Shown piece after piece: positions 3,661 through 19,100 of a DNA stretch of 35,771 bases. Position 1 is the stretch's first letter. The number at the start of each line of letters is the position of its first letter. The notes beneath the pieces are model-generated. The model did not search any database, was not told the DNA's origin, and saw nothing but the letters and a program-made list of their open reading frames with translations. The stretch is from a bacterium (lineage in GTDB: Bacteria; Patescibacteriota; Patescibacteriia; UBA9934; GWF2-40-263). Location of the stretch: assembly GCA_020057555.1 (NCBI GenBank), contig JAGVFR010000005.1, positions 1-35,771 of the forward strand, read 5' to 3'. The translations under genes were made by a program, and so were the position numbers.

Positions 3661-3734
3661 TACAAGTCGAAGGCAATGATTTTGTGAAATTTCGTTCTGT
3701 TTTGTTTATTTAACATCGCAAAATAATTAAACTC

Positions 3735-3775
3735 AAAAACCGACCGTTTTGACAATGCAAAATGGTTGTTTTTTT
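3735..3775 (+). terminator. Intrinsic terminator after the propeller protein
   Basis: A 13-bp stem (12 pairs, two of them G-U) formed by AACCGACCGTTTT and AAAATGGTTGTTT encloses an 8-base loop and runs into a T tract. It lies 75 bases after the stop codon at 3660. Confidence 0.7.
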
Positions 3776-3830
3776 GTGTCAGCTTTTCCTGACGTCTTGC
3801 ATTTTTTATCTAAATTTAGCCTAAAAAAGC

Positions 3831-3859
3831 TTGACTTACTTTTCAAATCATGCTACGCT
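3831..3859 (+). promoter_or_regulatory. Promoter of the membrane-anchored HExxH protein gene
   Basis: TTGACT (3831-3836), a 17-base spacer and TACGCT (3854-3859), with TG at 3851-3852 making an extended -10. The transcript would begin near 3866 with a small hairpin (GTTGCA, 5-base loop, TGCAAC) before the ribosome site. The promoter lies inside the longest possible frame beginning with TTG at 3831, which argues that translation starts at the ATG at 3912 instead. Confidence 0.75.
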
Positions 3860-3911
3860 TTTCAGTTGCAATGGATGCAACACGTTCAATACAACTGAAA
3901 GAGGTGGAAAA

Positions 3912-4550
3912 ATGAAACGCGTCAAAAAAAACAGATCCAAGTCAATAACAAAGTTCCTAGTATTGTTCGTGGTCACTTGTATCGTCGCAGCGCTCATCTA
4001 TCTAGGAACAGTTTGTAGCTCTGAAACGCTCAAGGATTCACCGGAACATAAGCATACAACATCCAGAAATATAGATGAGGAATTGTACAGATTATTCATA
4101 GAACATCCGATGGAGGAAGTAAGCAAGAAACTCTGGGCCGAAATCGTATCAGGTAAAGTCAAACTCGAGTGGAATGAAGAAATGAATGATTTTTTTGGTT
4201 CTTTCGGCGTTCATTCCCAAAAAGAAACCCTAAAAATCAATCTGCCGTTCACTAGTAACGCGTTACGATCCGAATTTGGGCAAAAATATTTAACTGTCGC
4301 GATCTATCATGAGGCAATTCATCATAGGCAATATCACGATCGTGGCGAAAAAGAAATCGGAGGAAGTTGCGAAGCATATTGGTTGGTCGAACAAGAGGCG
4401 TATAGTAAGCATTGTCTCTTGGCAAAACAACTTGGAATTCACGATGAAGCACCATACTGCAACTTAATCGACAACGAAACGTTCGACCAAAAATTACTCA
4501 CAGATCTTATTGCAAGTGATCCCAACTTCTCAACATGCGGACACATGTAA
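3912..4550 (+). CDS. Membrane-anchored HExxH metallopeptidase-like protein
   Basis: A 212-residue protein. The ATG at 3912 is preferred over a TTG 27 codons upstream because it has a strong ribosome site (GAGGTGG) and the promoter overlaps the longer version. Residues 13-33 form one hydrophobic segment, after positive residues, so the rest is probably outside the membrane. The motif YHEAIHHRQY (H133, E134, H137) is a zinc-binding HExxH, and E154, E160 or E162 could be the third ligand as in gluzincins. Cys residues (35, 153, 168, 183, 209) may form disulphides. I do not recognise a named peptidase family, so substrate and activity are unknown. It is a single-gene unit with its own promoter and terminator (4575-4602). 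Two more proteins of this broad kind are encoded at 5062-6384. Confidence 0.7.
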   Translation: MKRVKKNRSKSITKFLVLFVVTCIVAALIYLGTVCSSETLKDSPEHKHTTSRNIDEELYRLFIEHPMEEVSKKLWAEIVSGKVKLEWNEEMNDFFGSFGVHSQKETLKINLPFTSNALRSEFGQKYLTVAIYHEAIHHRQYHDRGEKEIGGSCEAYWLVEQEAYSKHCLLAKQLGIHDEAPYCNLIDNETFDQKLLTDLIASDPNFSTCGHM

Positions 4551-4574
4551 CATGGTCATGATATCTGGCATTCT

Positions 4575-4602
4575 ATAGTCGAGACACTCTCGGCTATTTT
4601 TT
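4575..4602 (+). terminator. Intrinsic terminator of the HExxH protein gene
   Basis: ATAGTCGAG pairs with CTCGGCTAT (9 bp, one G-U) around a 5-base loop and is followed at once by T5. It is back to back with a minus-strand terminator at 4603-4628. Confidence 0.8.
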
Positions 4603-4628
4603 AAAAAAGCTGTGCGAGTAGGCACAGC
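4603..4628 (-). terminator. Intrinsic terminator of the small membrane protein gene
   Basis: On the minus strand GCTGTGC, a 6-base loop and GCACAGC form a perfect 7-bp stem followed by T6. It starts six bases after the stop codon of the gene at 4634-4936, so the two convergent genes each have a dedicated terminator. Confidence 0.8.
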
Positions 4629-4633
4629 CGAGA

Positions 4634-4936
4634 TTACGGAACAGTGTCCGTAGGAAGGTCGAAGTCGATAAGGTCGCACATGTGCTTGTTGGACCTAGTT
4701 GATGTATGCATCAATTTACTGCCAATTGAATGCTGGAAAAAATCGTCTTCTAGCACATCGACCTCTATATGATTGCCAAACGATTCAGTAGAATCGTCAG
4801 TATCGCCGTTAATAGCGAAGACCGACGCGAACTTCGTAGTAAAGTCCGGGAAAAACTTCACCATAAGAGCCCCAGTTTTGGCACCAATCAAAAGAGCGAG
4901 CGCGCAGAACAAACAACCTTTCAGAAAGCGATACAT
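4634..4936 (-). CDS. Small secreted or membrane-anchored hypothetical protein
   Basis: A 100-residue protein starting MYRFLKGCLFCALALLIGAK. The ATG at 4936 has a good ribosome site (AGGAGAA, about seven bases upstream), so I prefer it to a start 16 codons earlier that overlaps a hairpin. Residues 4-21 form a hydrophobic segment that could be a signal peptide or an anchor; the remainder is acidic and polar (NGDTDDSTESFGNHIEVDVLED). I do not recognise the family. The upstream hairpin (4970-5000) separates it from the metallopeptidase-like operon, and a possible promoter at 5014-5042 would make that hairpin part of its leader. It faces the HExxH protein gene tail to tail. Function unknown. Confidence 0.6.
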   Translation of the reverse strand: MYRFLKGCLFCALALLIGAKTGALMVKFFPDFTTKFASVFAINGDTDDSTESFGNHIEVDVLEDDFFQHSIGSKLMHTSTRSNKHMCDLIDFDLPTDTVP

Positions 4937-4969
4937 GACTATTCTCCTTTTGTTTGAACCATACAAACA

Positions 4970-5000
4970 AAAACCTCCAATCAACTTGATAGGAGGTTTT
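4970..5000 (-). terminator. Terminator hairpin after the metallopeptidase-like operon, possibly an attenuator
   Basis: A perfect 9-bp inverted repeat (AAAACCTCC at 4970-4978, GGAGGTTTT at 4992-5000) encloses a 13-base loop. On the minus strand it ends in GGAGGTTTTTGTTTG, so it can end transcription from the operon finishing at 5062. If the promoter at 5014-5042 is real, the hairpin also lies in the leader of the 4634-4936 gene. Confidence 0.65.
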
Positions 5001-5013
5001 AACTTGTACTTAC

Positions 5014-5042
5014 AGATTACATCAAAATTAGTTTTTCGTCAA
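5014..5042 (-). promoter_or_regulatory. Possible promoter of the small membrane protein gene
   Basis: On the minus strand TTGACG, a 17-base spacer and TAATCT. The -35 is strong and the -10 weak. It lies just beyond the stop of the gene at 5062 and upstream of the hairpin at 4970-5000. Confidence 0.4.
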
Positions 5043-5061
5043 TGGCAGTTTTCCACAAGCG

Positions 5062-5691
5062 CTAGTTAAATTTGATTGAATGTTTGTATTTTTTTACTAG
5101 TCGAATTCCAGTTTGGATATATTCATCAAACGAATTGCGTTTCAAAAATGGATTTTTAAGTTTATTTTGTAACTGAACAATGCTTTGATAATTATGATTT
5201 GTATAGTAACCATCTGTATCCCATGGCCAGAATTTTTTTACTTGTGGAGTTAGTGATGTGAGCGCGAATGCCGCGATTTCTGCCAGAGCCCATATTTGTT
5301 TATCTGTTAAATTTACATCGGAATAAAACTTTCTTACAATATAAAAATAATGATGGAGAATCAGCTCATGCGCTGTTATTCGACAAATTGCGTAAGGATT
5401 TTCTTTCCACCATCGAATAATACGATCACTTCCGTCCCAATTAGAAATCCCCTGATGCACTGGAGACACAACACAATAATATTTTTCATGTGCCCATGCG
5501 TATCCGATTGTTTGTTCGATGTATCGTGAAAATAAATGATTGATTTCATCCCATGCTTTTTGATATTCACAAACCGAATACAACAATACAGATTTGCCTT
5601 TCCTGTATTGTTTCTCCATTTTCTGTTTCGCATTTACGTTCTGCGCGAAACGCAGATCGTATTTTTTGTCGATAATAAAGTGTAGTTCCAT
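5062..5691 (-). CDS. Metallopeptidase-like protein with an altered HExxxH motif
   Basis: A 209-residue protein with no signal peptide or membrane segment, so probably cytoplasmic. AHELILHHYF (H108, E109, H113, H114) resembles a zinc-binding motif but has three residues, not two, between Glu and the next His. ALAEIAAFAL (E138) is a candidate third ligand. It aligns by eye with its neighbour at 5722-6384 around the His motif and in the C-terminal part (WPWDTDGY...SFDEYIQTGIRLVKK against IIWPDKGY...NFDELIKYGVKEF), so the two look like diverged duplicates. The ATG has a ribosome site (TGAGG, eight bases upstream). It is the last gene of a three-gene operon, 30 bases after its paralogue. The family is not recognised; peptidase activity is an inference from the motif, and the extra residue may mean it is lost or altered. 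Confidence 0.65.
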   Translation of the reverse strand: MELHFIIDKKYDLRFAQNVNAKQKMEKQYRKGKSVLLYSVCEYQKAWDEINHLFSRYIEQTIGYAWAHEKYYCVVSPVHQGISNWDGSDRIIRWWKENPYAICRITAHELILHHYFYIVRKFYSDVNLTDKQIWALAEIAAFALTSLTPQVKKFWPWDTDGYYTNHNYQSIVQLQNKLKNPFLKRNSFDEYIQTGIRLVKKYKHSIKFN

Positions 5692-5721
5692 TAAAAAGAC
5701 CTCAACACAAGTGTGTCGAAT

Positions 5722-6384
5722 TCACTCAAATTCTTTCACACCATATTTTATTAGTTCATCAAAATTTTTATTCGCCTTCCAAAATTTTAATAATTTAGAT
5801 CTTAAATTTTCGTGAATTTTATATCCTTTATCTGGCCATATAATTAAATCCATAAATTCTTCATTCAAAACAATTGTCAAGGCTTCTTTCAAATCTTCAA
5901 ACTCCTGCATGGTTAATTTCTTTAAGCACATCGTCTGCCAATAAGCGTAAGTCTGAAAGTGGAGCAATTCATGTACAAAAATTCTTATATAAGTTTCTTT
6001 TGGCCAAATAATTGGAATCCAAACATATCCACGATGGTAATCGTAAGGAGCTCTTGGAAAAGTTGTCAAAAAACAAGTAAAATTTTCTCTGTAAATTTTT
6101 TTACCAATTACTTTTTCCATTCTTTTAAGAATTTCATTTTGTTGTTTTTTTAAAATATTTTGCAGTTCTTTCTTTTTTTGGTTGATATTTTCCTTTTTAT
6201 ATAAATTTCTCAAATAAGGGATTAAAAAGCTGAAGACTCGTTCCTTGGTTCTGCCAACCAATTTATTTTGTAATTTTTTTTCTATTCGTTGTTTCCAATC
6301 TACGCTATAAGAAATTTTATTGCAGGCGCTCCACCAGTTCCACGCGTCTTTTCTAATGCTTTGTTTTACAATTATTTCTGGCAT
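5722..6384 (-). CDS. HExxH metallopeptidase-like protein
   Basis: A 220-residue, probably cytoplasmic protein. Residues 60-95 are Lys/Gln/Glu-rich and likely helical. VHELLHFQTY (H138, E139, H142) is a standard HExxH zinc motif, and Glu residues 25-37 positions after the Glu of the motif (E167 in LKEALT, E175-E176 in LNEEF) could be the third ligand. No transmembrane segment is visible. It resembles the downstream neighbour at 5062-5691 in the His region and the C-terminus. There is no clear ribosome site, but it starts only five bases after the stop of the gene at 6390-7346, so translational coupling is likely. Family and substrate unknown. A role in trimming a modified peptide made by the nearby YcaO locus is conceivable but has no direct support. 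Confidence 0.65.
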   Translation of the reverse strand: MPEIIVKQSIRKDAWNWWSACNKISYSVDWKQRIEKKLQNKLVGRTKERVFSFLIPYLRNLYKKENINQKKKELQNILKKQQNEILKRMEKVIGKKIYRENFTCFLTTFPRAPYDYHRGYVWIPIIWPKETYIRIFVHELLHFQTYAYWQTMCLKKLTMQEFEDLKEALTIVLNEEFMDLIIWPDKGYKIHENLRSKLLKFWKANKNFDELIKYGVKEFE

Positions 6385-6389
6385 ATTTT

Positions 6390-7346
6390 TTATTTTTCAT
6401 AATCGTATGAAAAAACTCTAGAAGAAAGAACAGAAACATACCTGTGTCCGTGATCAAAATTTTGATCAAGAACTTTCATTAAGTCATCTGGCACTGATTT
6501 TTTCATAAATTCAACCTGCTCATTCAGACGTACGAGGATATATTCATTTTTCAATTTTCCTCTTTCTTTCAATTCTTTGGCAAATCTCAATTGCGCTTCT
6601 AGCTGAACTAAAACTTCGTGAAAAAAGAAATATTTGACAGGGTGTCGAGCAAGTTCACTTTGTTTCCCTTGTACCCATAACCTTGCTAAATGAACCAGAG
6701 TTTTTCTTTCTATAGCCAACACAACTGTTGGTAGAAGCTCCATTTTTCCTTTGAGAAAACCATCGCTTGAACGAAAATAACGAACCTCCCCCATCTCTCC
6801 ACGCATAATTTTTTTTCTGATTCGGTCTAATTTTTTTTCGATTGTCTTATCATGTCCTGATGTAGCGTCAATAGCAAACCCGAGATGCTTGCCTATATCC
6901 TCAAATTCCGCTATGAAGTCAATGCCGTTTGTATAATCATCAAACCTCGTCGTTTGTTGCGTTTTTACATGTTCTCCAAGCCATTCGTTTAATTCGATCT
7001 GTTCAATAACAATCGCTTCTAAAATTCTTCCCAATCTCATTATTTCTTCTTTTGATGGTTCAGATTCGTTTTGCTGTGCAAATTTTTCTTCCAAATCTCT
7101 CACCAAACGCAGGTTAGATTCTATTTCATCGGCAGTATAGACATTCGAAAAATTTTCTTCCTGTATCTGATCAGTTTCGGTATCCAAAGCCTTACGATAT
7201 GCTGCTTCCAAAATGATACGATTCGTTTCTTCTACGTCCCCAATAGTTCTATCCTTACTCCCATCTTTTATCGTTCTAGCTTCTCGTACTTCTTTATTTA
7301 CCTCGTTCAAATGATGAGCTGACCGAAACCGTTCTACTTCTGACAT
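6390..7346 (-). CDS. Patescibacteria conserved hypothetical protein, possible PD-(D/E)XK-like fold
   Basis: A 318-residue soluble protein. Residues 1-130 are charged and helical. The central text DDYTNGIDFIAEFED...LGFAIDATSG has an Asp after Asn-Gly, then Glu, then Asp-x-Thr, a pattern I recall from a widespread uncharacterised Patescibacteria family and one that resembles a reduced restriction-endonuclease-like core. The C-terminal third is again helical, with many Arg, Lys and Glu. It is the first gene of the operon with the two metallopeptidase-like genes (gap of five bases). The ATG lacks a clear ribosome site. A 19-bp palindrome lies 32-50 bases upstream. Nuclease activity is only suggested by the residue pattern; function unknown. 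Confidence 0.6.
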   Translation of the reverse strand: MSEVERFRSAHHLNEVNKEVREARTIKDGSKDRTIGDVEETNRIILEAAYRKALDTETDQIQEENFSNVYTADEIESNLRLVRDLEEKFAQQNESEPSKEEIMRLGRILEAIVIEQIELNEWLGEHVKTQQTTRFDDYTNGIDFIAEFEDIGKHLGFAIDATSGHDKTIEKKLDRIRKKIMRGEMGEVRYFRSSDGFLKGKMELLPTVVLAIERKTLVHLARLWVQGKQSELARHPVKYFFFHEVLVQLEAQLRFAKELKERGKLKNEYILVRLNEQVEFMKKSVPDDLMKVLDQNFDHGHRYVSVLSSRVFSYDYEK

Positions 7347-7377
7347 AAATTTTAAAAAATTATTTATTTAAATCGAA

Positions 7378-7396
7378 TTAATCATGAGTTGATTAA
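7378..7396. promoter_or_regulatory. Palindrome upstream of the three-gene operon, possible operator
   Basis: TTAATCA, five bases, TGATTAA: a perfect 7-bp inverted repeat lying 32-50 bases before the first start codon (7346). Its size and position suit a repressor dimer site over a promoter, and a weak TTGAAA -35 lies just upstream on the minus strand. In such AT-rich DNA it could also be chance. Confidence 0.35.
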
Positions 7397-7491
7397 CTTT
7401 CAATTTTTATTGTTGAAAGAATGATGCTTTTTTCTTGCAACTAATTTTTTAACGGTTGCCACGAGCTCTTTAACAGGAAGGATCTGAACCG

Positions 7492-7524
7492 TTCACTTAG
7501 TGAAAAAATGGCTCACTTAGTGAA
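7492..7524. repeat. Two palindromic copies of TTCACTTAGTGAA at the end of cysS
   Basis: TTCACTTAGTGAA (7492-7504) and CTCACTTAGTGAA (7512-7524) are direct repeats that are also self-complementary, so together they can form a 12-bp stem. The stop codon of cysS (7517-7519) lies inside the second copy. There is no T tract, so it is not a typical terminator, although a stem here would mark the end of the operon mRNA. The rest of 7347-7516 shows only short AT-rich inverted repeats. Confidence 0.5.
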
Positions 7525-8971
7525 GGGATTCGTAATAAATATCCCAACTAACTCCTGTTGGATCGTCATGCAATTCAATCCCAAGATCCTTTAATTCTTG
7601 TCGAATGCTATCACTGAGATTAAAGTTCTTATCGGATTTCGCTTTTTCTCTTTCTGATACCCGATCCTCGACGTATTCGCTCGTTATATTTCTTCTTTTT
7701 AAAAATCGCTCTTTCTCTCCATCGATATATTCTTGAGGATTTTCATCCAATAGTCTTAAAGTGCATGTAATTTTTTTAAATTCACGTATAAAATAGTCTA
7801 AGCTGGAAATTTTGTTATATTGAGCAATTTTTTCATCCATGAGGAATGAATTAACGTCTCGAAAAGTTGATGATAATTGAGACACGACAAGAGCAGTGTT
7901 GAAATCAGCATCCATCACAGATTCAAAATTCGCTACAACAGAATCAGAAAACTCCTTGAGGAGGTTATCGTCATCATTTGTTAAAGTACCATTTACTAAT
8001 AGTTTGTTGATAATGTTAAGCGTTTTATAAAAATAAAAGACTCTTTTACTAGCAATTTTAAATAAGTCCTCGGTAAAATCAATCGGTGAGGAATAGTGAA
8101 AACTTAATATCGCAAAACGTATTACATCGGGTGGATAATTCTTAAGAGCTTGTTCTACTGTAATAAAATTACCTAGACTCTTACTCATTTTTTGGCCTTC
8201 CACCATAACCAACCCATTATGAAGCCAATAATGTGCAAATTGTTTGTTAGTAAATGATTCGCTTTGTGCGATCTCGTTTTCATGATGGGGAAAGATCAAA
8301 TCTATTCCACCCCCGTGTATGTCAATAGAATCTCCGAGAAATATTTTTGCCAAGACCGAGCATTCAATGTGCCACCCTGGCCTGCCATAACCCCATGGCG
8401 ACAACCAAGATGGCTCACCTTTCTTAGTCTTTTTCCATAAACTGAAATCTTGAGGATGTTTTTTATAACGAACCGTCTCATCACTGACCATGTCTTCTAA
8501 TTTACGTTTTGATAATTTTCCATAATTAGGAAATGCATACACATCAAATAAAATTTCTCCATTAGAAACATAAGCTGCTCCAATTCTTAGTAATTTGCTA
8601 ATAAAATCGATAATCTCTTGAATGTAATCTGATACTTTTGGTTCATATGTAGCCCTACCGACTTTTAATCTTGATAAATCGATAGCGGTTTTAATTACGT
8701 AAAAATTACTTAGTTCAAGGGGATCTCTTTGTAGTTTCTTTGCTCTATCAATAATCTTATCGTCAATATCCGTATAATTACGAACGTATCTCACTATATA
8801 CCCCTTGTATTCAAAATAATTTCGCACAACATCAAAAAATATTGCCTGACGTGCATGACCTATATGGACATCATCGTAGGTCGTTACCCCACATGCATAC
8901 AAACTAACTTCTCCCGGTATTATCGGCTCAAAATGTTCAATTTTTCCTAAAAAAGTCGAGTAGATATTCAT
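7517..8971 (-). CDS. cysS: Cysteinyl-tRNA synthetase
   Basis: A 484-residue class I aminoacyl-tRNA synthetase that charges tRNA-Cys with cysteine using ATP. The catalytic core is intact: YACGVTTYDDVHIGHAR (zinc Cys and HIGH motif) near residue 27, GWHIECS with the second zinc Cys near 202, FPHHENEIAQSES with the remaining zinc ligands near 228, and KMSKSLGN near 264. The anticodon-binding helical domain and a short C-terminal domain (SDSIRQELKDLGIELHDDPTGVSW) are present, so the length is normal. It lies 31 bases after the YcaO gene in the same direction, with no terminator between, which implies one transcript. No ribosome site is evident. It could be the only CysRS of the cell or a second copy dedicated to the YcaO pathway; the window cannot show which. 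No T-box leader is visible. Confidence 0.95.
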   Translation of the reverse strand: MNIYSTFLGKIEHFEPIIPGEVSLYACGVTTYDDVHIGHARQAIFFDVVRNYFEYKGYIVRYVRNYTDIDDKIIDRAKKLQRDPLELSNFYVIKTAIDLSRLKVGRATYEPKVSDYIQEIIDFISKLLRIGAAYVSNGEILFDVYAFPNYGKLSKRKLEDMVSDETVRYKKHPQDFSLWKKTKKGEPSWLSPWGYGRPGWHIECSVLAKIFLGDSIDIHGGGIDLIFPHHENEIAQSESFTNKQFAHYWLHNGLVMVEGQKMSKSLGNFITVEQALKNYPPDVIRFAILSFHYSSPIDFTEDLFKIASKRVFYFYKTLNIINKLLVNGTLTNDDDNLLKEFSDSVVANFESVMDADFNTALVVSQLSSTFRDVNSFLMDEKIAQYNKISSLDYFIREFKKITCTLRLLDENPQEYIDGEKERFLKRRNITSEYVEDRVSEREKAKSDKNFNLSDSIRQELKDLGIELHDDPTGVSWDIYYESLH

Positions 8972-9002
8972 AAAGTAAGAGTTTGTCTTTTTCTATTCTA
9001 AC

Positions 9003-10223
9003 TCATCCAAATGGGTGCGGTAAAAAATTTATTTCAGATGAATTGAGTATCCCACCAGAGTAAATTTTCAATCTCCGATAGTCTCGGTGTAGCTGACTAT
9101 GGTTAACCTCAAGTGGGTGCATGCCTGGTACGACAACCTTATTAGCATAATAACCAGAATCTGAGAACTTCGTATGAAGAATATTCACACGCAAAGGTTC
9201 GTAACCATGACTCACAAGTCGATTAATACACTCTTTAAATGTCTTAGGATGATTTTCGGTTAGTCTTTGATATGCGCCGGAAGAAAGCACTGTGGTCTTA
9301 CCAACAAACCAACTATTGTAATTTCTGAAGTATCGATTATAGGGCACCATTATGTGATTCATGAGGCTCGCGACTGATTTATCTCCTACATAGTTCTTCT
9401 TTAAAAGTATTTTTTGCGTTCTCAAGATCATCACCGATTCCTCGATAGATCTTTGGATTGCAAGTTCAATATCGAGCTTACAGCACGAACCGTAAGCATT
9501 GTATTGGTTATCGGTAGAATAAAGCCGTGAAATCACAGTTATAATATTCATATCATTTACGGCGAAATACACCTCTATATTCATTCCAACATTTTGCACA
9601 AGAGCGAAAAGTTCCGCGATTTTTTTTGTAGCAAATAATTGTGAACTCTCTAAACAGAACCATCCTTTTTTCAGAAGCCACGAACACATGGTTGTATCGC
9701 GCTCTATCACTTCGCATAAACCGTTTTCCAAACTGTGTATTTCATTTTTCGCTACCGCCGCCCCAGTGGAGGTGCAGCCATCGATTTTTCCAACCTTATC
9801 GACTGGAACAATTAATTCAGCAGGAAGATATTTTATCGTCCCATCCAACAAACTTTCCGCTTTTACCCATTCATACACATATAAAATTTCTGGTCGGACG
9901 TATGAAAATTTCCTTCTGAAGTACTGATCTTGTGAATACAAAATAAATTCCTTTGGATTTATATACACATTCCGATCGTAATAACCGTAATAAAACTTAT
10001 CTTCTTCGAAGTTCATGAAGCAACATCGTTCAATAGATTCAGAGATAGCTCTAGCGAGAGCGTTTTCCTGATTAAGATCCAATGCTGCACCATTTACTTT
10101 TTCTGTATTTACGTTGAATCCATTGTTAGCTTTATCGCTCATTGGACTGACAAGGTATCCAGATAATTCAGGAACACCAAAAGGAATGTGTAGTCTCTTG
10201 GCTTTGAATTCAATCTGCTCCAA
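9003..10223 (-). CDS. YcaO-domain protein (azoline-forming type)
   Basis: A 406-residue YcaO enzyme. The family uses ATP to activate a peptide amide; typical members cyclise Cys, Ser or Thr into azolines, others make thioamides or amidines. Visible motifs are ALARAISESIERCC near residue 55 (the Glu-rich ATP-Mg site), STGAAVAKNEIHSLENGLCEVIERDT near 150-175 (second ATP site), LAIQRSIEESVMI near 265, and a C-terminus FLPHPFG that resembles the Pro-rich tail of azoline-forming YcaO proteins. No E1-like or Ocin-ThiF partner is encoded in the window. The likely start is TTG at 10223; no in-frame ATG occurs before residue 29 and no ribosome site is clear, so the start could be a few codons upstream. 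It has its own promoter (10424-10452) and a leader with a 22-codon ORF and a long hairpin. cysS follows in the same operon. Substrate unknown. Confidence 0.88.
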   Translation of the reverse strand: MEQIEFKAKRLHIPFGVPELSGYLVSPMSDKANNGFNVNTEKVNGAALDLNQENALARAISESIERCCFMNFEEDKFYYGYYDRNVYINPKEFILYSQDQYFRRKFSYVRPEILYVYEWVKAESLLDGTIKYLPAELIVPVDKVGKIDGCTSTGAAVAKNEIHSLENGLCEVIERDTTMCSWLLKKGWFCLESSQLFATKKIAELFALVQNVGMNIEVYFAVNDMNIITVISRLYSTDNQYNAYGSCCKLDIELAIQRSIEESVMILRTQKILLKKNYVGDKSVASLMNHIMVPYNRYFRNYNSWFVGKTTVLSSGAYQRLTENHPKTFKECINRLVSHGYEPLRVNILHTKFSDSGYYANKVVVPGMHPLEVNHSQLHRDYRRLKIYSGGILNSSEINFLPHPFG

Positions 10224-10262
10224 TCTACTTTTTGTAACATGTATTTTCCAACGTAATGACCC

Positions 10263-10298
10263 AAATTAAATACCATCAATTAAGATGGTATTTAATTT
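10263..10298 (-). promoter_or_regulatory. Perfect 15-bp hairpin in the YcaO-cysS leader (attenuator-like)
   Basis: AAATTAAATACCATC (10263-10277) and GATGGTATTTAATTT (10284-10298) pair without mismatch around AATTAA. On the minus strand the 3' arm ends ATTTAATTT, a weak terminator-like tail. It sits seven bases after the stop of the 22-codon ORF and 40 bases before the YcaO start. This is where a partial terminator or RNA-processing stem is often found between a precursor-peptide or leader-peptide gene and the enzymes it precedes. Confidence 0.6.
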
Positions 10299-10305
10299 TA
10301 AGAGG

Positions 10306-10374
10306 TTAACCTGTCTCTGTTGAACAAAAAACCTCGGACATACTCTCAATTGAGTCTATGATAATTTTTACCAT
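10306..10374 (-). CDS. 22-codon ORF in the YcaO leader: candidate precursor or leader peptide
   Basis: ATG at 10374 to TAA at 10306 encodes a 22-residue peptide that starts MVKIIIDSIE, continues SMSEV and ends FCSTETG. The hydrophobic and acidic first part followed by a short tail with one Cys, Ser, Thr and a final Gly looks like a tiny leader plus core, the kind of substrate a YcaO enzyme modifies. It starts about 43 bases after the predicted transcription start and ends just before a perfect hairpin. No ribosome site is visible, though YcaO and cysS also lack one. A short frame like this can occur by chance in AT-rich DNA, and it could instead be a regulatory leader peptide (one Cys codon in front of a cysS operon). 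Position is its main support. Confidence 0.35.
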   Translation of the reverse strand: MVKIIIDSIESMSEVFCSTETG

Positions 10375-10423
10375 ATTTAAAGAGAGAATTACCTTACTTA
10401 GATGTATTTTCGACCTTTTAAGT

Positions 10424-10452
10424 AAAGTAACAGAGACGATGTAAAGCGTCAA
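10424..10452 (-). promoter_or_regulatory. Promoter of the YcaO-cysS operon
   Basis: On the minus strand TTGACG, 17 bases, TACTTT, with TG one base before the -10. The predicted start is near 10417. A 9-bp inverted repeat (GTCTCTGTT at 10313-10321 and AACAGAGAC at 10429-10437) and a smaller 10-bp stem nearby (one G-U) lie across the promoter and leader and may be regulatory. Confidence 0.6.
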
Positions 10453-10492
10453 AAAAAAATTACGGTTACTACTCTACTCGATTTGTTGAAAT

Positions 10493-10516
10493 AAAAAAGC
10501 CTGCCGAGAGGCAGAC
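10493..10516 (-). terminator. Intrinsic terminator of the radical SAM gene
   Basis: On the minus strand GTCTGCC, a TCTC loop and GGCAGGC (7 bp, one G-U) followed by T6. It begins nine bases after the stop codon of the radical SAM gene and so separates that gene from the YcaO-cysS unit, which has its own promoter immediately downstream. Confidence 0.85.
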
Positions 10517-10524
10517 AAATAGAG

Positions 10525-11670
10525 TTAATCGGGCGTTCGGATAGCGCTTCCAAAGTCCCAATCAGATGTCCACAATGTGCCACCTTCAACAGGCATCTCA
10601 ACAAACTTCTTATCATGTAACAGAGGCAACACAAGTTTCTGAAAGAACAGCTGAAGTGCACAGGCACTTTTATCTTTACCATATAGATCACCATTAGATG
10701 ACCATGCGGTACGACGGCAACCTCCCCCGCAATACTTGAGCATATGACAGTTTGCACACTTCGTAACCAAAAGTGGCATACATTTATGAGCCCTACACGG
10801 AGTCGATCTCCATATGTCTTGAAGCAAAGCACTATGCACGTTACCGAATATAACATTGTCAAAAGCCGGACATGGCACAACGCTTCCATCCGCCTTAACG
10901 GTAATCGATGTTTTCTTATATTCACAACAACAGTTTTCCGTGGAGAATGTATGAATGATCTTTCGCTCAATATCTCGACTCGTGATGAGAGAATCCACGC
11001 TGATATGGATATCGTCTTGATGACAAAGCATGTGTTTAATAATTTGCTCAAAGGCCATACATACATCGCTGAAGTCAGCATATATATCTAGATTATTTCC
11101 AGCTTCACCTTGGAGTCTTGGTATTGCCAATCGCCACTGGCTGGCACCAATGCTCTTTATCATGGATAACATCGGAATGAGGCTATCGACGTTATATTTC
11201 GTCACCATCGTATTGACACCGACTGCCACTCCTGAGTGACGTGCGAATCGGACAAACTTCATGGCACTAGAAAACGTCCCGACCCCCCTCATCATCTCAT
11301 GAGCACTTGCTGAATGCCCATCCAGACTTACCAAGAAACTCGTTGCAGGACTATCTTTGAGTAATCTCTCGACAACATCAAGCCTATGTACCGTGCCATT
11401 GGTGAAAACACTTTTAAGACGAACTGCCTTGTCTTTGAAGAGACTAATGATTTCAGGCAGATCGCGTCGCAGAAGTGGTTCTCCTCCAGAAAGCCAACAC
11501 TCCTCGACTCCCATCTTTTCCATTTCAGCGACTAGCAATCGAATCCGTTGCTGTGTCAATTGATCACGTAAACGAGAAAGAAAATACTTTCCACCATAGC
11601 AATGTTTACATTTTCCTAAAAGGTTACAGCGGTTCGTAACATCCAGATGAACCGATTTCAATGTTACCAT
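10525..11670 (-). CDS. Radical SAM/SPASM-domain protein with a CX5CX2C cluster motif
   Basis: A 381-residue radical SAM enzyme. The SAM-cluster motif near residue 14 reads VTNRCNLLGKCKHCYGG, with five rather than three residues between the first two Cys. ECWLSGGEPLLRRDL (residues ~57-71) is the SAM-binding GGE motif, followed by FTNGT and FLVSLDG, as in the TIM-barrel core. The C-terminal part (residues ~250-345) is a Cys-rich SPASM domain: ADGSVVPCPAF, GNVHS, CANCHMLKYCGGGCRR and a final Cys near DKSAC, suited to two extra iron-sulphur clusters. SPASM enzymes commonly modify peptides, though some act on other substrates. The ATG has a strong ribosome site (GGAGAA). A TATAAT at 11757-11762 on the minus strand is a weak promoter candidate. 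It has its own terminator but lies next to the YcaO operon on the same strand. Confidence 0.9.
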   Translation of the reverse strand: MVTLKSVHLDVTNRCNLLGKCKHCYGGKYFLSRLRDQLTQQRIRLLVAEMEKMGVEECWLSGGEPLLRRDLPEIISLFKDKAVRLKSVFTNGTVHRLDVVERLLKDSPATSFLVSLDGHSASAHEMMRGVGTFSSAMKFVRFARHSGVAVGVNTMVTKYNVDSLIPMLSMIKSIGASQWRLAIPRLQGEAGNNLDIYADFSDVCMAFEQIIKHMLCHQDDIHISVDSLITSRDIERKIIHTFSTENCCCEYKKTSITVKADGSVVPCPAFDNVIFGNVHSALLQDIWRSTPCRAHKCMPLLVTKCANCHMLKYCGGGCRRTAWSSNGDLYGKDKSACALQLFFQKLVLPLLHDKKFVEMPVEGGTLWTSDWDFGSAIRTPD

Positions 11671-11791
11671 TTTATTTTCTCCATTCTTGTATCTGGTTAA
11701 TAGACAATCAAGTCATTCGTTTTTTATTGGAAAGATCAATTCCCTATAACCCTTATATTATAACTAAGAAAAAAAATCAAGCCGTTGTATT

Positions 11792-11854
11792 GGGGTCAGA
11801 TCTTCGATCATCGGTTTTGAGCGATGTTAAACCGATGATCGAAGACCTGACCCC
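11792..11854. repeat. Long palindromic repeat of the GGGGTCAGRTCTTC type (REP/MITE-like)
   Basis: Two 26-base arms (11792-11817 and 11829-11854) differ at one position and enclose an 11-base loop. The arm ends are GGGGTCAG and CTGACCCC. From memory, similar GGGGTCAGGTCTTC words border palindromic repeats and transposon ends in many bacteria. It lies between the divergent radical SAM and lipoprotein genes, close to the lipoprotein promoter; no transposase is encoded in the window. Confidence 0.75.
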
Positions 11855-11862
11855 TTCCAAAC

Positions 11863-11891
11863 TTGACAAAATTGGGGTTTTGTGATGAAAT
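11863..11891 (+). promoter_or_regulatory. Promoter of the lipoprotein gene
   Basis: TTGACA (11863-11868), 17 bases and TGAAAT (11886-11891). The leader has a small hairpin (GCCCA, GAAAA loop, TGGGC) just before the ribosome site, like the arrangement in front of the HExxH protein gene at 3912. Confidence 0.65.
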
Positions 11892-11932
11892 GATGATGAG
11901 GATGCCCAGAAAATGGGCTGAAAGGAGAGAAA

Positions 11933-12691
11933 ATGAAGCTCTTTCAAAAGGTCGCGATCTGCGTGATCGCAATGGTTCTGTCCATGTTTATTCTCGCGGG
12001 TTGCGAGAGCGCGGGAGCTGAAGACAGCAGAACAGCGTGCGAAAAAATCCGAACATGCTGTGAGGAGGGGTATAGTAACCACGCGGTGTGTGACGATTAT
12101 GAAACTGAAGATGACTGTGAACTATCTCTAAGCTTTAGTTTTGTAAGTGAAGAGTGCGTCAATGGTCACTTTGTGGAGAAAGTGAACAAGTCCGGACTCG
12201 TGATCGCCACGGCGCCCAACGAATTCGTTGGAGATTTCACGTTCAATGGCGAAGTGGTCTGCGTGAACGTCAATGTCTGCGAGAAGAAGACTATCGGCGA
12301 AAAAAAGACGGGTGGTGGTGTGGTCTGGGTAAAATTCTTTCGTCAAGATTCTCTCTTTCTTAACAAGGTCGTCGGAATTGATCCGATGGATCCTGTGAAA
12401 GTCTTCTGGGACGAGCCCGAGGACTGGGGGCTCGCGCCAAACGGGACGTATCGCGATGAGGCCGATCAGTACGAAGGTGAGGCCACGACGGAGATGGTTG
12501 ATGGTCACTTTGAACTCCACTGGGCTGGATCCATTCTAGGCATAGTAGATAGGAACAGCTTCTCCGTAGCAGATGACGCTATCGAAATCTCCAATGGGAT
12601 CATCTCCGATGATCTCAAGACGATCACATACCACAAGACGTATCCACAATCCAACAAGGAATTCGATATCGTGCTCACTCGTGTCGAGTAG
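11933..12691 (+). CDS. Cys-rich lipoprotein, hypothetical
   Basis: A 252-residue lipoprotein. Residues 1-23 are a signal peptide with a clear lipobox (ILAGC), so Cys24 would carry the lipid and the protein sits on the outer face of the membrane. The next ~55 residues hold many Cys (CEKIRTCCEEGYSNHAVCDDYETEDDC and onward, including VSEEC), probably forming disulphides. The rest is beta-rich and acidic, with FVGDFTFNGEVVCVNVNVC and a C-terminal DDLKTITYHKTY segment like that of small beta-barrel lipoproteins. The ribosome site AGGAGA is strong, with a promoter at 11863 and a terminator at 12726. I do not recognise the family. It is divergent from the radical SAM gene, with no sign that the two act together. 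Confidence 0.75.
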   Translation: MKLFQKVAICVIAMVLSMFILAGCESAGAEDSRTACEKIRTCCEEGYSNHAVCDDYETEDDCELSLSFSFVSEECVNGHFVEKVNKSGLVIATAPNEFVGDFTFNGEVVCVNVNVCEKKTIGEKKTGGGVVWVKFFRQDSLFLNKVVGIDPMDPVKVFWDEPEDWGLAPNGTYRDEADQYEGEATTEMVDGHFELHWAGSILGIVDRNSFSVADDAIEISNGIISDDLKTITYHKTYPQSNKEFDIVLTRVE

Positions 12692-12725
12692 CTGGATCGT
12701 AGATCCTTCGCTCGAAGGATCACTG

Positions 12726-12761
12726 CCCGGTTTGCATACTGCAACCCGGGATTTTTTATTT
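12726..12761 (+). terminator. Intrinsic terminator of the lipoprotein gene
   Basis: CCCGGTTTGCA, a TAC loop and TGCAACCCGGG form an 11-bp stem with one mismatch, then ATTTTTTATTT. A second perfect hairpin (GATCCTTC, GCTC loop, GAAGGATC at 12702-12721) lies just before it. Confidence 0.85.
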
Positions 12762-13075
12762 GAAAATTCCTCATCGACCGAGTGGAGAGATCTCTCGACT
12801 CGTTTAACTCGCTCGAGATGACAGAAGCATAGATTGCTTCGACCTTTGGTCTCGCAATGACGGAAATTCGAGATGACAAAAATGCTCTGTGTCATCTCGA
12901 GCGATCCCGCCATGGCGGGAGAGTCGAGAGATCTCTCCGCTCGTCGGCTGTTGGCCTCCTCGGTCGAGATGACAAAAGCAGAGATTGCTTCGACCTTTGG
13001 TCTCGCAATGACGGAAATTCGTGATCCTTCGCTTCGCTCAGGAGGACTGAAAAAGTAACCGCTCGGGATGACACA
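12762..13075. repeat. Cluster of dispersed repeats, non-coding
   Basis: Two 58-base direct copies (12813-12870 and 12964-13021) differ at two positions. Both contain the words GATTGCTTCGACC and CTCGCAATGACGG, related to the element at 543-641. Between them, GAGAGATCTCTCGACTCG words near 12783-12802 recur inverted near 12931-12952. The open frames here have no ribosome sites and appear to be made of the repeats. With a single 93-base gap between the two copies it is not a CRISPR array. I see no gene in this stretch. Confidence 0.75.
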
Positions 13076-13082
13076 AGACAAC

Positions 13083-13110
13083 AAAATCACAGGCGTTAGC
13101 CTGTGATTTT
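13083..13110 (-). terminator. Terminator after the giant surface protein gene
   Basis: A perfect 12-bp stem (AAAATCACAGGC and GCCTGTGATTTT) with a 4-base loop, ending on the minus strand in GATTTTGTTGTC. It lies 10 bases after the stop codon at 13121. It is symmetrical enough that it could also stop transcription arriving from the left. Confidence 0.75.
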
Positions 13111-13120
13111 CTCCTTTTTC

Positions 13121-16100
13121 CTACTCCACTTCAACAATTATTGTTCCATTGTAGTTGACCCAAGGGTTGACAATTAAATTTGTATTGACGATATCTGGAC
13201 ATTTGTTGTTTGTGTTTTCGCTCGGACAAACATCTATCTGACATTCATTATTAATCAGTTCTACTCCACCATAGCATCCATCTTTCCCATCACTTCCAGC
13301 ATCACAAAAACCTGTACACCAGCCCCAGTTATCTTTCACGTGTACGCGAGGCTGAAACACGCACGCGGCTTTTCCTTCTTTTGTTGAGCTCAAACATGGA
13401 GAGTTGATCAAACGTCCGCCAGCAAATTTACACTCACGTGTTTCAAGCGCATTCACATTAGCCTGGCTACACGCATAATCATGGCTAAACACAACATAAC
13501 CACTTGAGCACGCTTCTGGCGATTCACCAAAGTTATCAGCGTCACTGCTACAAATCTCGCTATTGTTACCAACTGTGTTATTCAACCCGCGATGATTTTT
13601 ATAGAAGTTATCATCGGCGTTAGATCCGCTTTGCGAATCTGTCGGCCATGGCATTCCTTCAGCCGTAATATCTTTTCCGTCTCCCCAGTCAACAACTATA
13701 TTTCTAATCGGCATCTGGTTTGAATCAGCATACGCGAAGAAACTTACACTCACGCGCTTTGAACCTTTTGCCAAAATATTTCCTTCATCTTGATCGTTCA
13801 CAGTAAACGCGCCTTCTTTTCCCTCTTTACATTTTGTTCCCGCGCACGCGCCAAGCGAAACAACAGTCGGCGGTTTCCCTTCTTTTGCGCGCTCATCCCA
13901 AGTCCAATCATTTGCAGATGAATCTTTTTGAAAAACACTTTCTGGATCAGAAGAAATTGATTCTAAATCTCCAAACAAATTGTTATCGCCATACTTGCCT
14001 ACATCATCTGTAAACTTCAACAGATCATACGAAAGCGCAAATAATTGTTTCACGCGCGACGTGACTAACTCTTTAATTTTTGTAACGTCCTCAAGATTTT
14101 TCAATTCGACTCCTGAAAGACTCGACTCAACGCAGCCATTCACGTATTCACCTGAAACATATTTTTGTACGCATTGATATACTTCACAATCGGATGTCTT
14201 TGTGCATGAAGAACCATTTTCTGTATTTCCACTCTCACATATTCCAACACACTCACCTCCACCTTCTCCACACGCCGTTTCAGACAAACCAATAAAACAC
14301 TTTTCTTTTTTAGAATCATCAGTTAAAGCATCACATTCTTTTGTATCTAATGCTTTTTTACCAAGAGCAGAATCACAAGACTTGCCATTTACTTTATTTT
14401 CGTCTTCTCCTGTAACTTCACAAATTAGTGAATTACAAACAGCTGGATTTCCATTAACTAAATTGCAACTTGCGTCATCTGTACATGTTCCAATAGGTGC
14501 ACTACTGACTAGTTCCACGACCTCAACTCCATAGTACGGTCGAGCCTCCCCAATTCCGGATACAATATTGTAATCTTCATCGCACGTACCAGCTCCGTCA
14601 GTTGATGCGAGTTTTTGGTTATCACCATCTTGACACATGTACACGCGATGAGGATAAGGATCCGGCACTGTTTCTTTATCAAGCTTCTTTGTTAATCCAA
14701 ACGCTTGACCAAAAATTTCCGGAACAGTGCTTGGTTTATACCCAAATGCTTTGAACTGTGTGTCACCGATTGTTATCGTGTAATCATCCTTAATGAAATA
14801 TGGAGTTGGCTTGCTCTTCCACACGCGATCGGTATAAGCCGCGTTGTAATTTCCTTTTTCATCAGCGGTTTGTTTTCCAACCTCAAGAATATTTTTGCAA
14901 GCCGCGTATGGTGTGAGCGAAATTCCTGATGTGTTCGGTGAACTTTTTGATTCAAAATAATATTCAAACAATGGTTCATCGTCAAACACTCCTCTGACAA
15001 AACAATCATTGTAAGAAGTTTTATATTCTGAATATTTACTACTACCCATGAAGTAAATCGTATTGTCATTCTCATCTTCTGAATTTTTATAAACGACTTC
15101 ATCGTCTTTTGGTAGTTCACATCTGTCACCCTTAGCCATTCCAAGACCTTCCCCTTTATCATCATCCTTTTTATAAGACAATTCTGGAACGCAGAAATAT
15201 GGGTAATCGTCATCTCCCCAAGACTCTGTACACGTATCGTCTCCAGGCGAGGCATCTCCGCATCCTGTCATAATCACGAAAGAACCTGGGGCGCAATAAG
15301 TGTCTTCATCAGGATAATCATCTTGAAAAGCAGATGTTGTTGAGGAGTCATTGCACCACCCATCACCTGTTTCAGCACATCGTCCTCCACTTGTACTAAA
15401 ATCATACGCAAGTCCGATTTCACCGCAGAAATATGTGTCCTGCGGTTCAAAACCAGCGCTCAAATATTTCGCGTACAAATCAGTCGCGCCAGAAAGTTGA
15501 TCAACCGGAAGCCAAGTCAAACACGCTTGGTCTTTCGGTTCAGTGCTTGCGAAAAGTTGAATAGATGTATCTTTTTCAATGCAATAACCTTCCCATCCAA
15601 ACATTGAGTCGCGGCGAGATTGCTTCAAACAAGTTCCGGAGCTTAATGGGTTCTCTACTTGATCAGCACAATCGTCGTTCGATTGACAAATGTGACCGTC
15701 AAAAGCTCCGCCTGAACAAAAACCGGTTGGGAGGGTCGCGGAAGAACCAACTTCTTCAAAACGATTGATGGTTCCGTCAGCGTATTCAACTTTGTCATAA
15801 CTACAATTACAGTTTGCGAATTTTCCATTTCCTTGCGGCGCGCAAATTTGAGAATCCTGATAGCCAGTTTTATATGTGTATGGACGCGACCATGTTTCTG
15901 TGTCAGCTTCTGACGTTGGAGTAAATCCAGCTTCTAAAGCGCCTTGTTTCCCGTTCGCTGTTGCCCATTGTTCAACAACATTTGGTAAATAAGGTGAATC
16001 AATCTCCGGATATCCGCGGCAAGATTGCGTTACGTAGTTTTCAGATTTTAGTGGATCAGCAAATCCATCGCTGTTACTATCAATAATCGAAGTCAAACAT

Positions 16101-19100
16101 CGGCCACTAAAACATGAACCGTTCGCTGTTGTCGCGTTTAGAACGCAAACTTGCGGATCATCACAATTGTTGTCTGCGGCCGCGTAACAATTTTGCGCGC
16201 CAAGTTGTTTATCAACACAAACGCTTGTGACAACGTCGCAAACATATCCACCTATACAATCCGCACTTACTGCGCACGAACAATCTGTGTTCACACAATT
16301 TGTTGTGTTTCCAGATTTCGCTGTTGCCTGACATGATCCGATCACACACTTGTCAGCCGCTCCGGCCGATGTTTTCCCGCAATCCGAACTTGTTCCGCAT
16401 TCTTTTCCAGAATCTTCACAAAAGCCAACTTGACACGAACTACCAAGTTCTGCCGATGTCTTGCACGGTCCGGCATCGTTTACCAAACGATATGCTGTTG
16501 GCGCGGTTTTGCATGATGACCCTTTCGCGCAGTCTTTATCATTATCACACTCCTTAAGAGATCCCTCTGCAGTTCCATCGGCTTTCAAGCACGCTTTCGC
16601 TGGATTGACATTAAATTGATTGTAAAGCTCAACAGGCAATTTGTTTGGAATCGCATAACCGGATAAATCCGAACCGCTCCATGTGATATCGCGCGATGAG
16701 TATTGGTACGCGGTCAAAATTTTCGGATCACGAGGTGACCACTTCGTGCAAGTTGATTCATTTCCAAGCGCTCCGCCTTCTGTGCACAAATTCACTGAAT
16801 CACAAATTCGTTCATACTTATTGTTTTGTTCATTCCAACTTGTGCGTGACGAATCGCACGCAAGCCACGATGAACAACTACGATCGCGCACAACCCTCAA
16901 AACAATGTTTGAATCATTCTCGAGTATATAATCCTGAACAACCGTCGCGCATTGCGTTGCTTTGATTTCTTTCCCATTTTTTGTTTCAAGTGTCGGGCAA
17001 TCTTCAACAGATAGACACGAACGTTCAAAGTAAGTGCTGTTAGTATTTGTTTTTTTCTGACTCATGCTTGTTTCAAGTGAATCATCCAATCCTGTTGTAT
17101 ATTCACATCTCTGATTACACAAATTCACTTTTGTTGTATCTGACAATGTGAATTCGTCACCTCCAGGGAGTGTACAACTAACCGGATCAACAAGCGCGTT
17201 TGGTGATTGATTTAATAATTCATCAGCATGAATTGAAACAACATAAGAAGCGCTCGCGTTGTAGTTGAGTTCTGATCGACTTCGATTATTGAAAACAGCA
17301 CAGCCAAGTTTTTGGCTTACTCTTCCTTTACAAACATCGGGATCCGCTGTTGCGGCTTCGTCAAGTTTGTCGTTATTCAAAAAGTAATATGGTTTTTCAT
17401 TATCTGTAACATCAGCAAATTCAGTGCACAAATCAGCGCCGGATGGACAACTTCCAACCCAACCGTCGTACCCAGCGTCTCCGTTTTGCCAAATCGCGGC
17501 TTGATCTCCGTCAACAATATACGCGCTATCAATTTTTGGCTGGAACCCTGTCGTTCCATTCACATCTGCCCAATAACACGGCTCGCTTGTTCCACTTCTA
17601 AACCAGCCGGAAAATTTCTGCTTTTCAATTTCAACACCGGCTCGATATTCACACGTTTTCTTGATTGGATCTTTGAAATAAAAGTTCCCATCTTTTGTTG
17701 AAGCAAACTCGTCACAGAACAAAGCGTCGTTATCACACAAAATATCTCCATACTTTTCTGGATCATTTATGAAATACGCACTGTCAAAACCTTCAACTTT
17801 TTTCAAATCCTGACTGTATTTTGGCGCGCCAACTTCGCGACATCCTGCGACTTTTGCATCGCAATCCGCTTTTCCATTATCAACAATGTACACAGCGCTA
17901 TCTGCTGGAGACAAAACCGTTTCTGGTCCATACACAATTCCGAAATTGCCATCTTTCGGCAATTTATTTTCAAACACTCCGTCTAAATCGAATGTACAAT
18001 ACGATCTGCCGGTTGAAATCGTGCAGTATGTTTTGCCATTAACAACACAAGCTGTGTTTTGACTTACAAATGACGGAACTGCTAAATCTCCGTTCGTGCC
18101 TTGTGAGCATCTCGCATTAAACACTTGGCTGTACGCTGAATCTGATTCAAATGTTTTATTAAACGCTTCGCACCCAACAACCGCTTCTGAACAAAGATTA
18201 GAAAATTGATACAAATCACTCGCTTTGCCATCTTTGTCAGAATATGATTCACAGCCAAGATAATACTGCGGCGTTACAGCTCCGTTTGGAGCAGTGTCAC
18301 AGGTTGAAGGAATAACCCAAGAATCTTTCACGATCGTGATATTTTCTTCAACTTGTTTGAGAATCAAATTATCAATGAAAAATTCTTTCCCGGCGTCAGT
18401 TTGGAAAGCAAGAATCGAATTTTTCTCAATACCAGAGTATGGACTCGAATCAAACGGACCAAGCGAATAAACTTTCCAATTTCCTGTTAAAGCAATCTGG
18501 CCGCCAAAATCATAAGAATCAGAATTCTGTTGTCCTCCGTATTCAACAATTGACGCTTGAAGATTCCCGTTTCCTTTTGCCCAAAACTGTGTAACAAACG
18601 TTTTTCCGGAAACAAGTTTATTCACAAGCGGACCGCAACTGTTCGCGCCAGGATATACAACACAATCCGGCGCGATTTCACAGCCGGCTGGCGTTACAGT
18701 ATGACTTAAATTCGAACATGTCTGCGCTGAATTGTTTGGGTCATACGTAACATTTATGTGAGCAACATCAAGATATTCTTGCGTTGTCGCAAACCCGCCT
18801 TTTGCACCAGCAGGAACAGACACGCGCAAAGAATGTCCGTCTGTTGCAATGGATTCGTTGCTAATTTTTATATCAGTATTTGCTGGACCGAATTTCTCAA
18901 ATCCAGCGTATGATCCGGATTCGAATGTTTCGTTAAGAAGCGTGACAGCGTTTCGACCCGCTCCTCCAGTATATGAACGACAACCATTTTGCGCAGAAGG
19001 ACAACTATTACTCTCTGAAGACAAACCAAAGTACCGACAAAAACCGACTTGCTGATCAAAGAAACCGCCAGAAGCGTCACAATCAGATTTTGTAGAAACA

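Follow-up and report, generated by a model that had tools for sequence, protein, structure and literature searches.

A Lineage-Specific YcaO–Cysteinyl-tRNA Synthetase Gene Pair at a Putative Peptide-Modification Site in a Patescibacterium

Introduction

Among described YcaO systems, the azoline cyclodehydratases of thiazole/oxazole-modified microcin (TOMM) pathways (SagD, McbD, and LynD; model TIGR03604) and the YcaO proteins of bottromycin biosynthesis, which function without a partner protein (PMC8442711), are closest to the system considered here. This system is a pair of adjacent genes, one encoding a YcaO enzyme and the other a second cysteinyl-tRNA synthetase (CysRS2, gene cysS2), in a 35,771-nucleotide stretch of patescibacterial DNA (contig JAGVFR010000005.1); we refer to the whole stretch as the window and use its position numbers throughout. 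The window YcaO resembles the TOMM cyclodehydratases in its fold, its ATP-site residues, and a C-terminal P-x-P motif (PHPFG in the window), but differs from them in that no E1/Ocin-ThiF protein, SagB dehydrogenase, or precursor was found nearby and in that sequence identity is at most ~26% over the full length. With the bottromycin enzymes it shares the occurrence of the YcaO domain alone, whereas neither a bottromycin-type precursor nor the corresponding neighbors are present in the window. Peptide chemistry in Patescibacteria is, to our knowledge, almost unstudied.

The synthetase has counterparts of a different kind. It is established that natural-product clusters can contain a second aminoacyl-tRNA synthetase (aaRS) gene; examples are VlmL, the seryl-tRNA synthetase (SerRS) of the valanimycin cluster (cited in PMC4159871), and the SerRS of albomycin. 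The window likewise holds a second complete aaRS within an accessory, putatively biosynthetic locus, but the amino acid is cysteine instead of serine and no aminoacyl-tRNA-using transferase was identified in the window. Self-resistance copies of aaRSs include the SerRS of albomycin and the mupirocin-insensitive isoleucyl-tRNA synthetase; like these, CysRS2 is an additional, divergent copy, of foreign origin, of an enzyme that the cell cannot do without, and it lies at a putative peptide-product locus, but it has conventional residues at nearly all highly conserved positions, and neither a product nor a target was identified here. Extension of a peptide with the use of Cys-tRNA is an established reaction of TglB-type peptide aminoacyl-tRNA ligases (PEARLs) (PMC9016710). 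In both the window and the TglA/TglB pathway of 3-thiaglutamate, peptide modification stands close to cysteine and the charging of tRNA; unlike in that pathway, no PEARL enzyme was found here, as the genome of the window gave no match to PF04738 (Lant_dehydr_N/PEARL), a weak negative because the control genomes were likewise unmatched. We know of no PEARL pathway with its own CysRS next to a YcaO gene. A further enzyme, MshC, descended from CysRS.

Results

The YcaO and cysS2 genes were both gained in this lineage, lie side by side inside conserved flanks, and look catalytically intact. The genome (849 kb in 30 contigs) is 96% complete with a listed contamination of 1.15%. Positions 3690–6388 and 11858–20000 of the window are collinear with contig C7 of a sister species (genome G008) at ~70–94% identity; because both flanks are collinear, we conclude that the contig is native to the lineage and not chimeric, and misbinning is ruled out. 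Between the flanks, a 5.5-kb block (6389–11857) that carries the radical SAM (S-adenosylmethionine), YcaO, cysS2, and ORF318 genes, and that has a lower G+C content than the surrounding DNA, stands in place of 1.48 kb of G008. The repetitive extragenic palindrome (REP)-like sequence at the block edge has another copy at C13:895–922 of the same genome, and a REP-type transposase was found in G008.

The sister species encodes a different radical SAM/SPASM protein at this site, ~21% identical to that of the window, and the window gene is not found there. The 3′ end of the G008 gene overlaps a cysteine-rich open reading frame (ORF) of 44 codons preceded by a perfect ribosome-binding site, AGGAGG. 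After this ORF come a terminator-like hairpin and then the HELLH gene common to both species. The 44-residue peptide, MEAVQLLLVRKGVEEQAPVQDPKRTCFGSCDCCDCADCSCDCVN, did not match any NCBIfam model; from its sequence, it has the look of the leader and core of a ribosomally synthesized and post-translationally modified peptide (RiPP), with the layout MEAVQLLLVRKGVEEQAPVQDPKRT-CFGSCDCCDCADCSCDCVN and eight cysteines within 19 core residues. The presence of this radical SAM/SPASM gene and cysteine-rich precursor in G008 marks the site of the block as RiPP-like. The G008 locus (C7, L251:4666–5851) is a candidate RiPP locus of Patescibacteria in its own right.

Table 1. Positions of features in and around the YcaO–cysS2 block of the window.
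Feature	Position	Strand	Description
Second small HELxxH-like protein	5062–5691	-	Related to a gene of genome G009
HELLH metallopeptidase-like protein	5722–6384	-	Native to the site; 79% nucleotide identity to G008:C7, syntenic
ORF318	6390–7346	-	Patescibacterial protein, function unassigned; 170 bp after cysS2, 5 bp before next gene
cysS2	7517–8971	-	484 aa; second, laterally acquired full-length cysteinyl-tRNA synthetase
YcaO	9003–10223	-	406 aa, TTG start; standalone, highly divergent YcaO enzyme
Leader of YcaO–cysS unit	10224–10424	-	Folding z -3.4; no Rfam/T-box match
Perfect 15-bp A+T palindrome	10263–10298	-	Operator or RNA hairpin
22-aa ORF MVKIIIDSIESMSEVFCSTETG	10306–10374	-	Weak candidate precursor or leader peptide
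Terminator-like hairpin	10499–10516	-	Between radical SAM gene and YcaO
Radical SAM/SPASM protein	10525–11670	-	381 aa; PF04055 1e-19, PF13186 8e-10; same inserted block
REP-like palindrome	11792–11854	.	Block edge; another copy at G000:C13:895–922 (G000, genome of the window)

Membership of the window protein in the YcaO superfamily is supported by its domain score (PF02624, E = 2.7e-29, 103 bits against a gathering score of 25.7), conserved ATP/Mg residues, and predicted fold, and its match to TIGR03604 is partial (143.3 bits, under the curated cut-off of 219.25). Residues E62, E65, R66, E171, E174, R175, D176, E262, and R384 are all conserved, and none of the 12 residues invariant in a 37-member YcaO alignment is lost. 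The AlphaFold model (predicted local distance difference test score 88, predicted template modeling score 0.91) retrieved cyanobactin heterocyclases as the top PDB folds, with a methanogen YcaO and McbD next. The catalytic residues and predicted fold match those of azoline-type YcaOs. Its best relatives anywhere are 20–26% identical over most of the protein and up to ~32% over shorter stretches, and the nearest relatives that we inspected lie mostly in E1–YcaO–dehydrogenase (TOMM) clusters. A search of 73 genomes of the order gave no YcaO in the rest of the genus and, outside the genus, one distant protein in genome G015; any YcaO is present in 13 of 380 sampled Patescibacteria.

The synthetase passes the TIGR00435 cut-off of 340 with 490 bits, falls under the cut-off of the MshC model (TIGR03447; 242 bits, cut-off 485), and retains the anticodon-binding region. 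Given that the HIGH and KMSKS motifs, the zinc ligands (C27, C204, H229, and E233), and the C-terminal domain are all retained, with departures from highly conserved columns at only four positions, CysRS2 should charge tRNA. The genome encodes another full-length cysS (C1:14655–16010), 30% identical to cysS2. cysS was matched in 67 of 72 genomes of the order, with two copies in the genome of the window and one in each of the other 66. A tree of 67 taxa places the C1 copy among the enzymes of the order, beside those of genus mates, whereas CysRS2 pairs with the CysRS of a patescibacterium of another family (genome G430) with support of 100/99, a pairing that persists under different taxon sampling. 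Judged from these sequences, cysS2 is a foreign second copy and not the housekeeping gene. Kinship with the G430 enzyme is likely but not certain, because both sequences are on long branches and the rare residues common to them are only slightly more numerous than those of other fast rows (13, against 11 in the next row), which is not decisive.

In G430, cysS is the last gene of an apparent biosynthetic operon (G430:C5, L255:740–8197) that also encodes a truncated leucyl-tRNA synthetase-like fragment, two radical SAM proteins (one MoaA-like, the other of the radical SAM/SPASM type), a methyltransferase, a glycosyltransferase, and an HExxH protein. The best match of the radical SAM/SPASM protein is the PapB ranthipeptide maturase, below the cut-off, and a search with the two radical SAM proteins of the operon found no others in that genome. 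A radical SAM and HExxH context thus recurs with the CysRS2 branch; YcaO does not.

Consistent with the initial annotation, the pair lies on one strand with a 31-bp gap and has a structured leader. Both genes are intact, with matches to PF02624 and TIGR00435, and we infer that they are cotranscribed. The RNA fold of the leader is stronger than that of 200 of 200 shuffled sequences (z = -3.4), mainly because of the perfect 15-bp A+T hairpin. The leader did not match any Rfam family, and a T-box for cysS is ruled out given that the Rfam T-box was unmatched even at a permissive threshold. For the single promoter proposed at 10424–10452, the sequence TTGACG-17-TACTTT (10452–10424) is present, but it agrees with the consensus at 8 of 12 positions, lies below the scan threshold, and occurs in a region with no excess of promoter-like sites. 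The suggestion of a leader ORF did not hold up: the 22-codon frame has no ribosome-binding site, and 24% of shuffled leaders are expected to contain a frame this long by chance. The proposed radical SAM/RiPP context survives in part, in that the site is RiPP-like by comparison with G008; the radical SAM gene itself ends 301 bp upstream of YcaO, and this gap together with the terminator-like hairpin indicates that it is probably a separate transcription unit.

We sought recurrence of the pairing in 73 genomes of the order, 380 genomes of the phylum, all-prokaryote contigs, viral contigs, and plasmids. One other YcaO neighborhood with a nearby cysS was found, in Bradyrhizobium Leo170 (L099), where the genes are 2.4 kb apart and the cysS is a frameshifted second copy; we consider this a coincidence because the orthologous YcaO genes of genomes G594 and G681 and of Tistrella have no cysS beside them. 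The Bradyrhizobium TOMM cluster (L099:84–5227) has a precursor with the sequence CCCCTAPCCCT. Two plasmid-borne cysS matches proved to be chromosomal housekeeping blocks, and the others are in unrelated contexts. No relatives of CysRS2 or of the window radical SAM protein were found in viral contigs. In the collection of papers searched, none links a YcaO with a second CysRS; two contain both terms, and neither treats such a link in its title or abstract.

Discussion

We tentatively favor reading the YcaO–cysS2 unit as an accessory block at a variable RiPP-type site, with CysRS2 as an indirect auxiliary or immunity enzyme. In such a system, a partner-free, ATP-dependent YcaO of the azoline or amidine type would activate backbone amides of a small peptide containing Cys or Ser/Thr, and the G008 peptide provides a concrete candidate substrate. 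CysRS2 would charge tRNA in the ordinary way and contribute to the pathway indirectly, not as the chemical partner of YcaO; its most likely role would be that of an isoform sustaining translation should CysRS be hit by the product or an intermediate, or that of an extra supply of Cys-tRNA. Several results weigh against this proposal. Neither the window nor the 336 of 849 kb of the genome that were searched yielded a convincing precursor. As the initial annotation had remarked, no E1-like/Ocin-ThiF partner is present in the YcaO neighborhood, and no TfuA or transport gene was recognized there. A conserved cysS was absent from all 93 other YcaO neighborhoods, such that the pair is so far unique, with one occurrence. 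The kinship with the G430 enzyme involves two long branches, and G430 has one cysS and no YcaO in 801 kb, which suggests that its CysRS may be plain housekeeping.

Since the case for a functional link is one of position, a passenger explanation is nearly as good: the site would be a hotspot for insertions, and cysS2 a redundant translation gene that came in together with YcaO or later and is functionally untied to it. The lack of a conserved cysS at other YcaO loci, the sole-copy status of the G430 enzyme in a genome without YcaO, and the ordinary contexts of ORF318 relatives agree with this explanation, and mobile DNA is suggested by the REP-like palindrome at one edge of the block and by the REP-type transposase of G008; however, the two genes are codirectional and tightly spaced, they share one lineage-specific block, and a complete, conserved second CysRS has been kept in an 849-kb genome although relatives have one. 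Direct chemical coupling, in which a tRNA charged by CysRS2 would be used to add cysteine to a carrier peptide and YcaO would cyclize the added residue, appears unlikely to us, even though TglB-type extension provides a precedent (PMC9016710), the sister locus encodes a cysteine-rich peptide, and CysRS2 looks competent. No other aminoacyl-tRNA-dependent ligase was recognized beside the pair, the PEARL search and its silent controls add a weak negative, the precursor search was empty, and a single CysRS is normally enough to supply Cys-tRNA. The direct YcaO–CysRS link raised in the initial annotation is similarly disfavored by YcaO relatives without cysS, by the lack of YcaO in G430, and by a leader ORF no longer than chance would give.

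The origin of MshC from CysRS, and a separate patescibacterial clade of short CysRS-like proteins, two of whose genes adjoin BshB2/MshB-like deacetylase genes, bring to mind an MshC-like ligase whose acceptor for cysteine is a small molecule or the peptide instead of tRNA. We regard this as very improbable for CysRS2, which retains the C-terminal anticodon-binding region, scores far higher as CysRS than as MshC (490 against 242 bits), and groups apart from the short clade. An artefact of assembly or binning, which a draft in 30 contigs and the low G+C of the block might suggest, is largely refuted by the collinearity of both flanks with G008 and the listed contamination of 1.15%, and we give it hardly any credence. 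The broader idea of a patescibacterial RiPP-type pathway with its own CysRS, either feeding tRNA-bound cysteine into a YcaO-modified peptide or providing immunity against a CysRS-targeting product, is doubtful. Should the pair prove functional, it would widen the roles of aaRSs in natural-product pathways, whether in use or in protection, to include cysteine and Patescibacteria. The initial annotation had stated beforehand that YcaO homologs without cysS, together with a window cysS that is the sole copy, would speak against its proposal: the homologs do lack cysS, but the window gene is a laterally acquired addition to the full copy on C1. Its observation is partly confirmed and its interpretation partly supported.

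Neighboring Genes and Related Loci

Of the 379 other Patescibacteria sampled, 13 have homologs of ORF318, none beside YcaO or cysS, and the ordinary contexts of these homologs give no support to a role of this protein as an E1 or recognition partner. A terminator-like hairpin (5720–5701) follows the HELLH gene. On the other side of the block, a lipoprotein (11933–12691) has an N-terminal cysteine-rich stretch that is missing from its G008 counterpart, and positions 13121–22492 encode a single cysteine-rich protein of 3123 residues with an N-terminal signal-like stretch that is common to genus mates. The sole ThiF-family protein of the genome is encoded on contig C23 (L276), away from YcaO, in a row of JAB-domain, ThiF-type E1, ubiquitin-like, and E2-like genes that resembles a PRTRC or ubiquitin-like conjugation cassette.

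The short CysRS-like proteins (370–400 residues), which lack an anticodon domain, make up a single clade in Patescibacteria (L277, L278, L279, L280, L281, L282, and L284), and at least four genomes with such a protein also carry a full cysS. The genes adjoining BshB2/MshB-like deacetylases are at L277:7799–9711 and L280:7621–9479; these loci are a possible counterpart, outside the known phyla, of the mycothiol or bacillithiol pathways. A contig of Roizmanbacteria (L096:3498–5607) encodes a Cys/Pro-rich precursor directly before a YcaO gene, which is followed by a possible dehydrogenase gene, and is apparently an ordinary TOMM locus in Patescibacteria.

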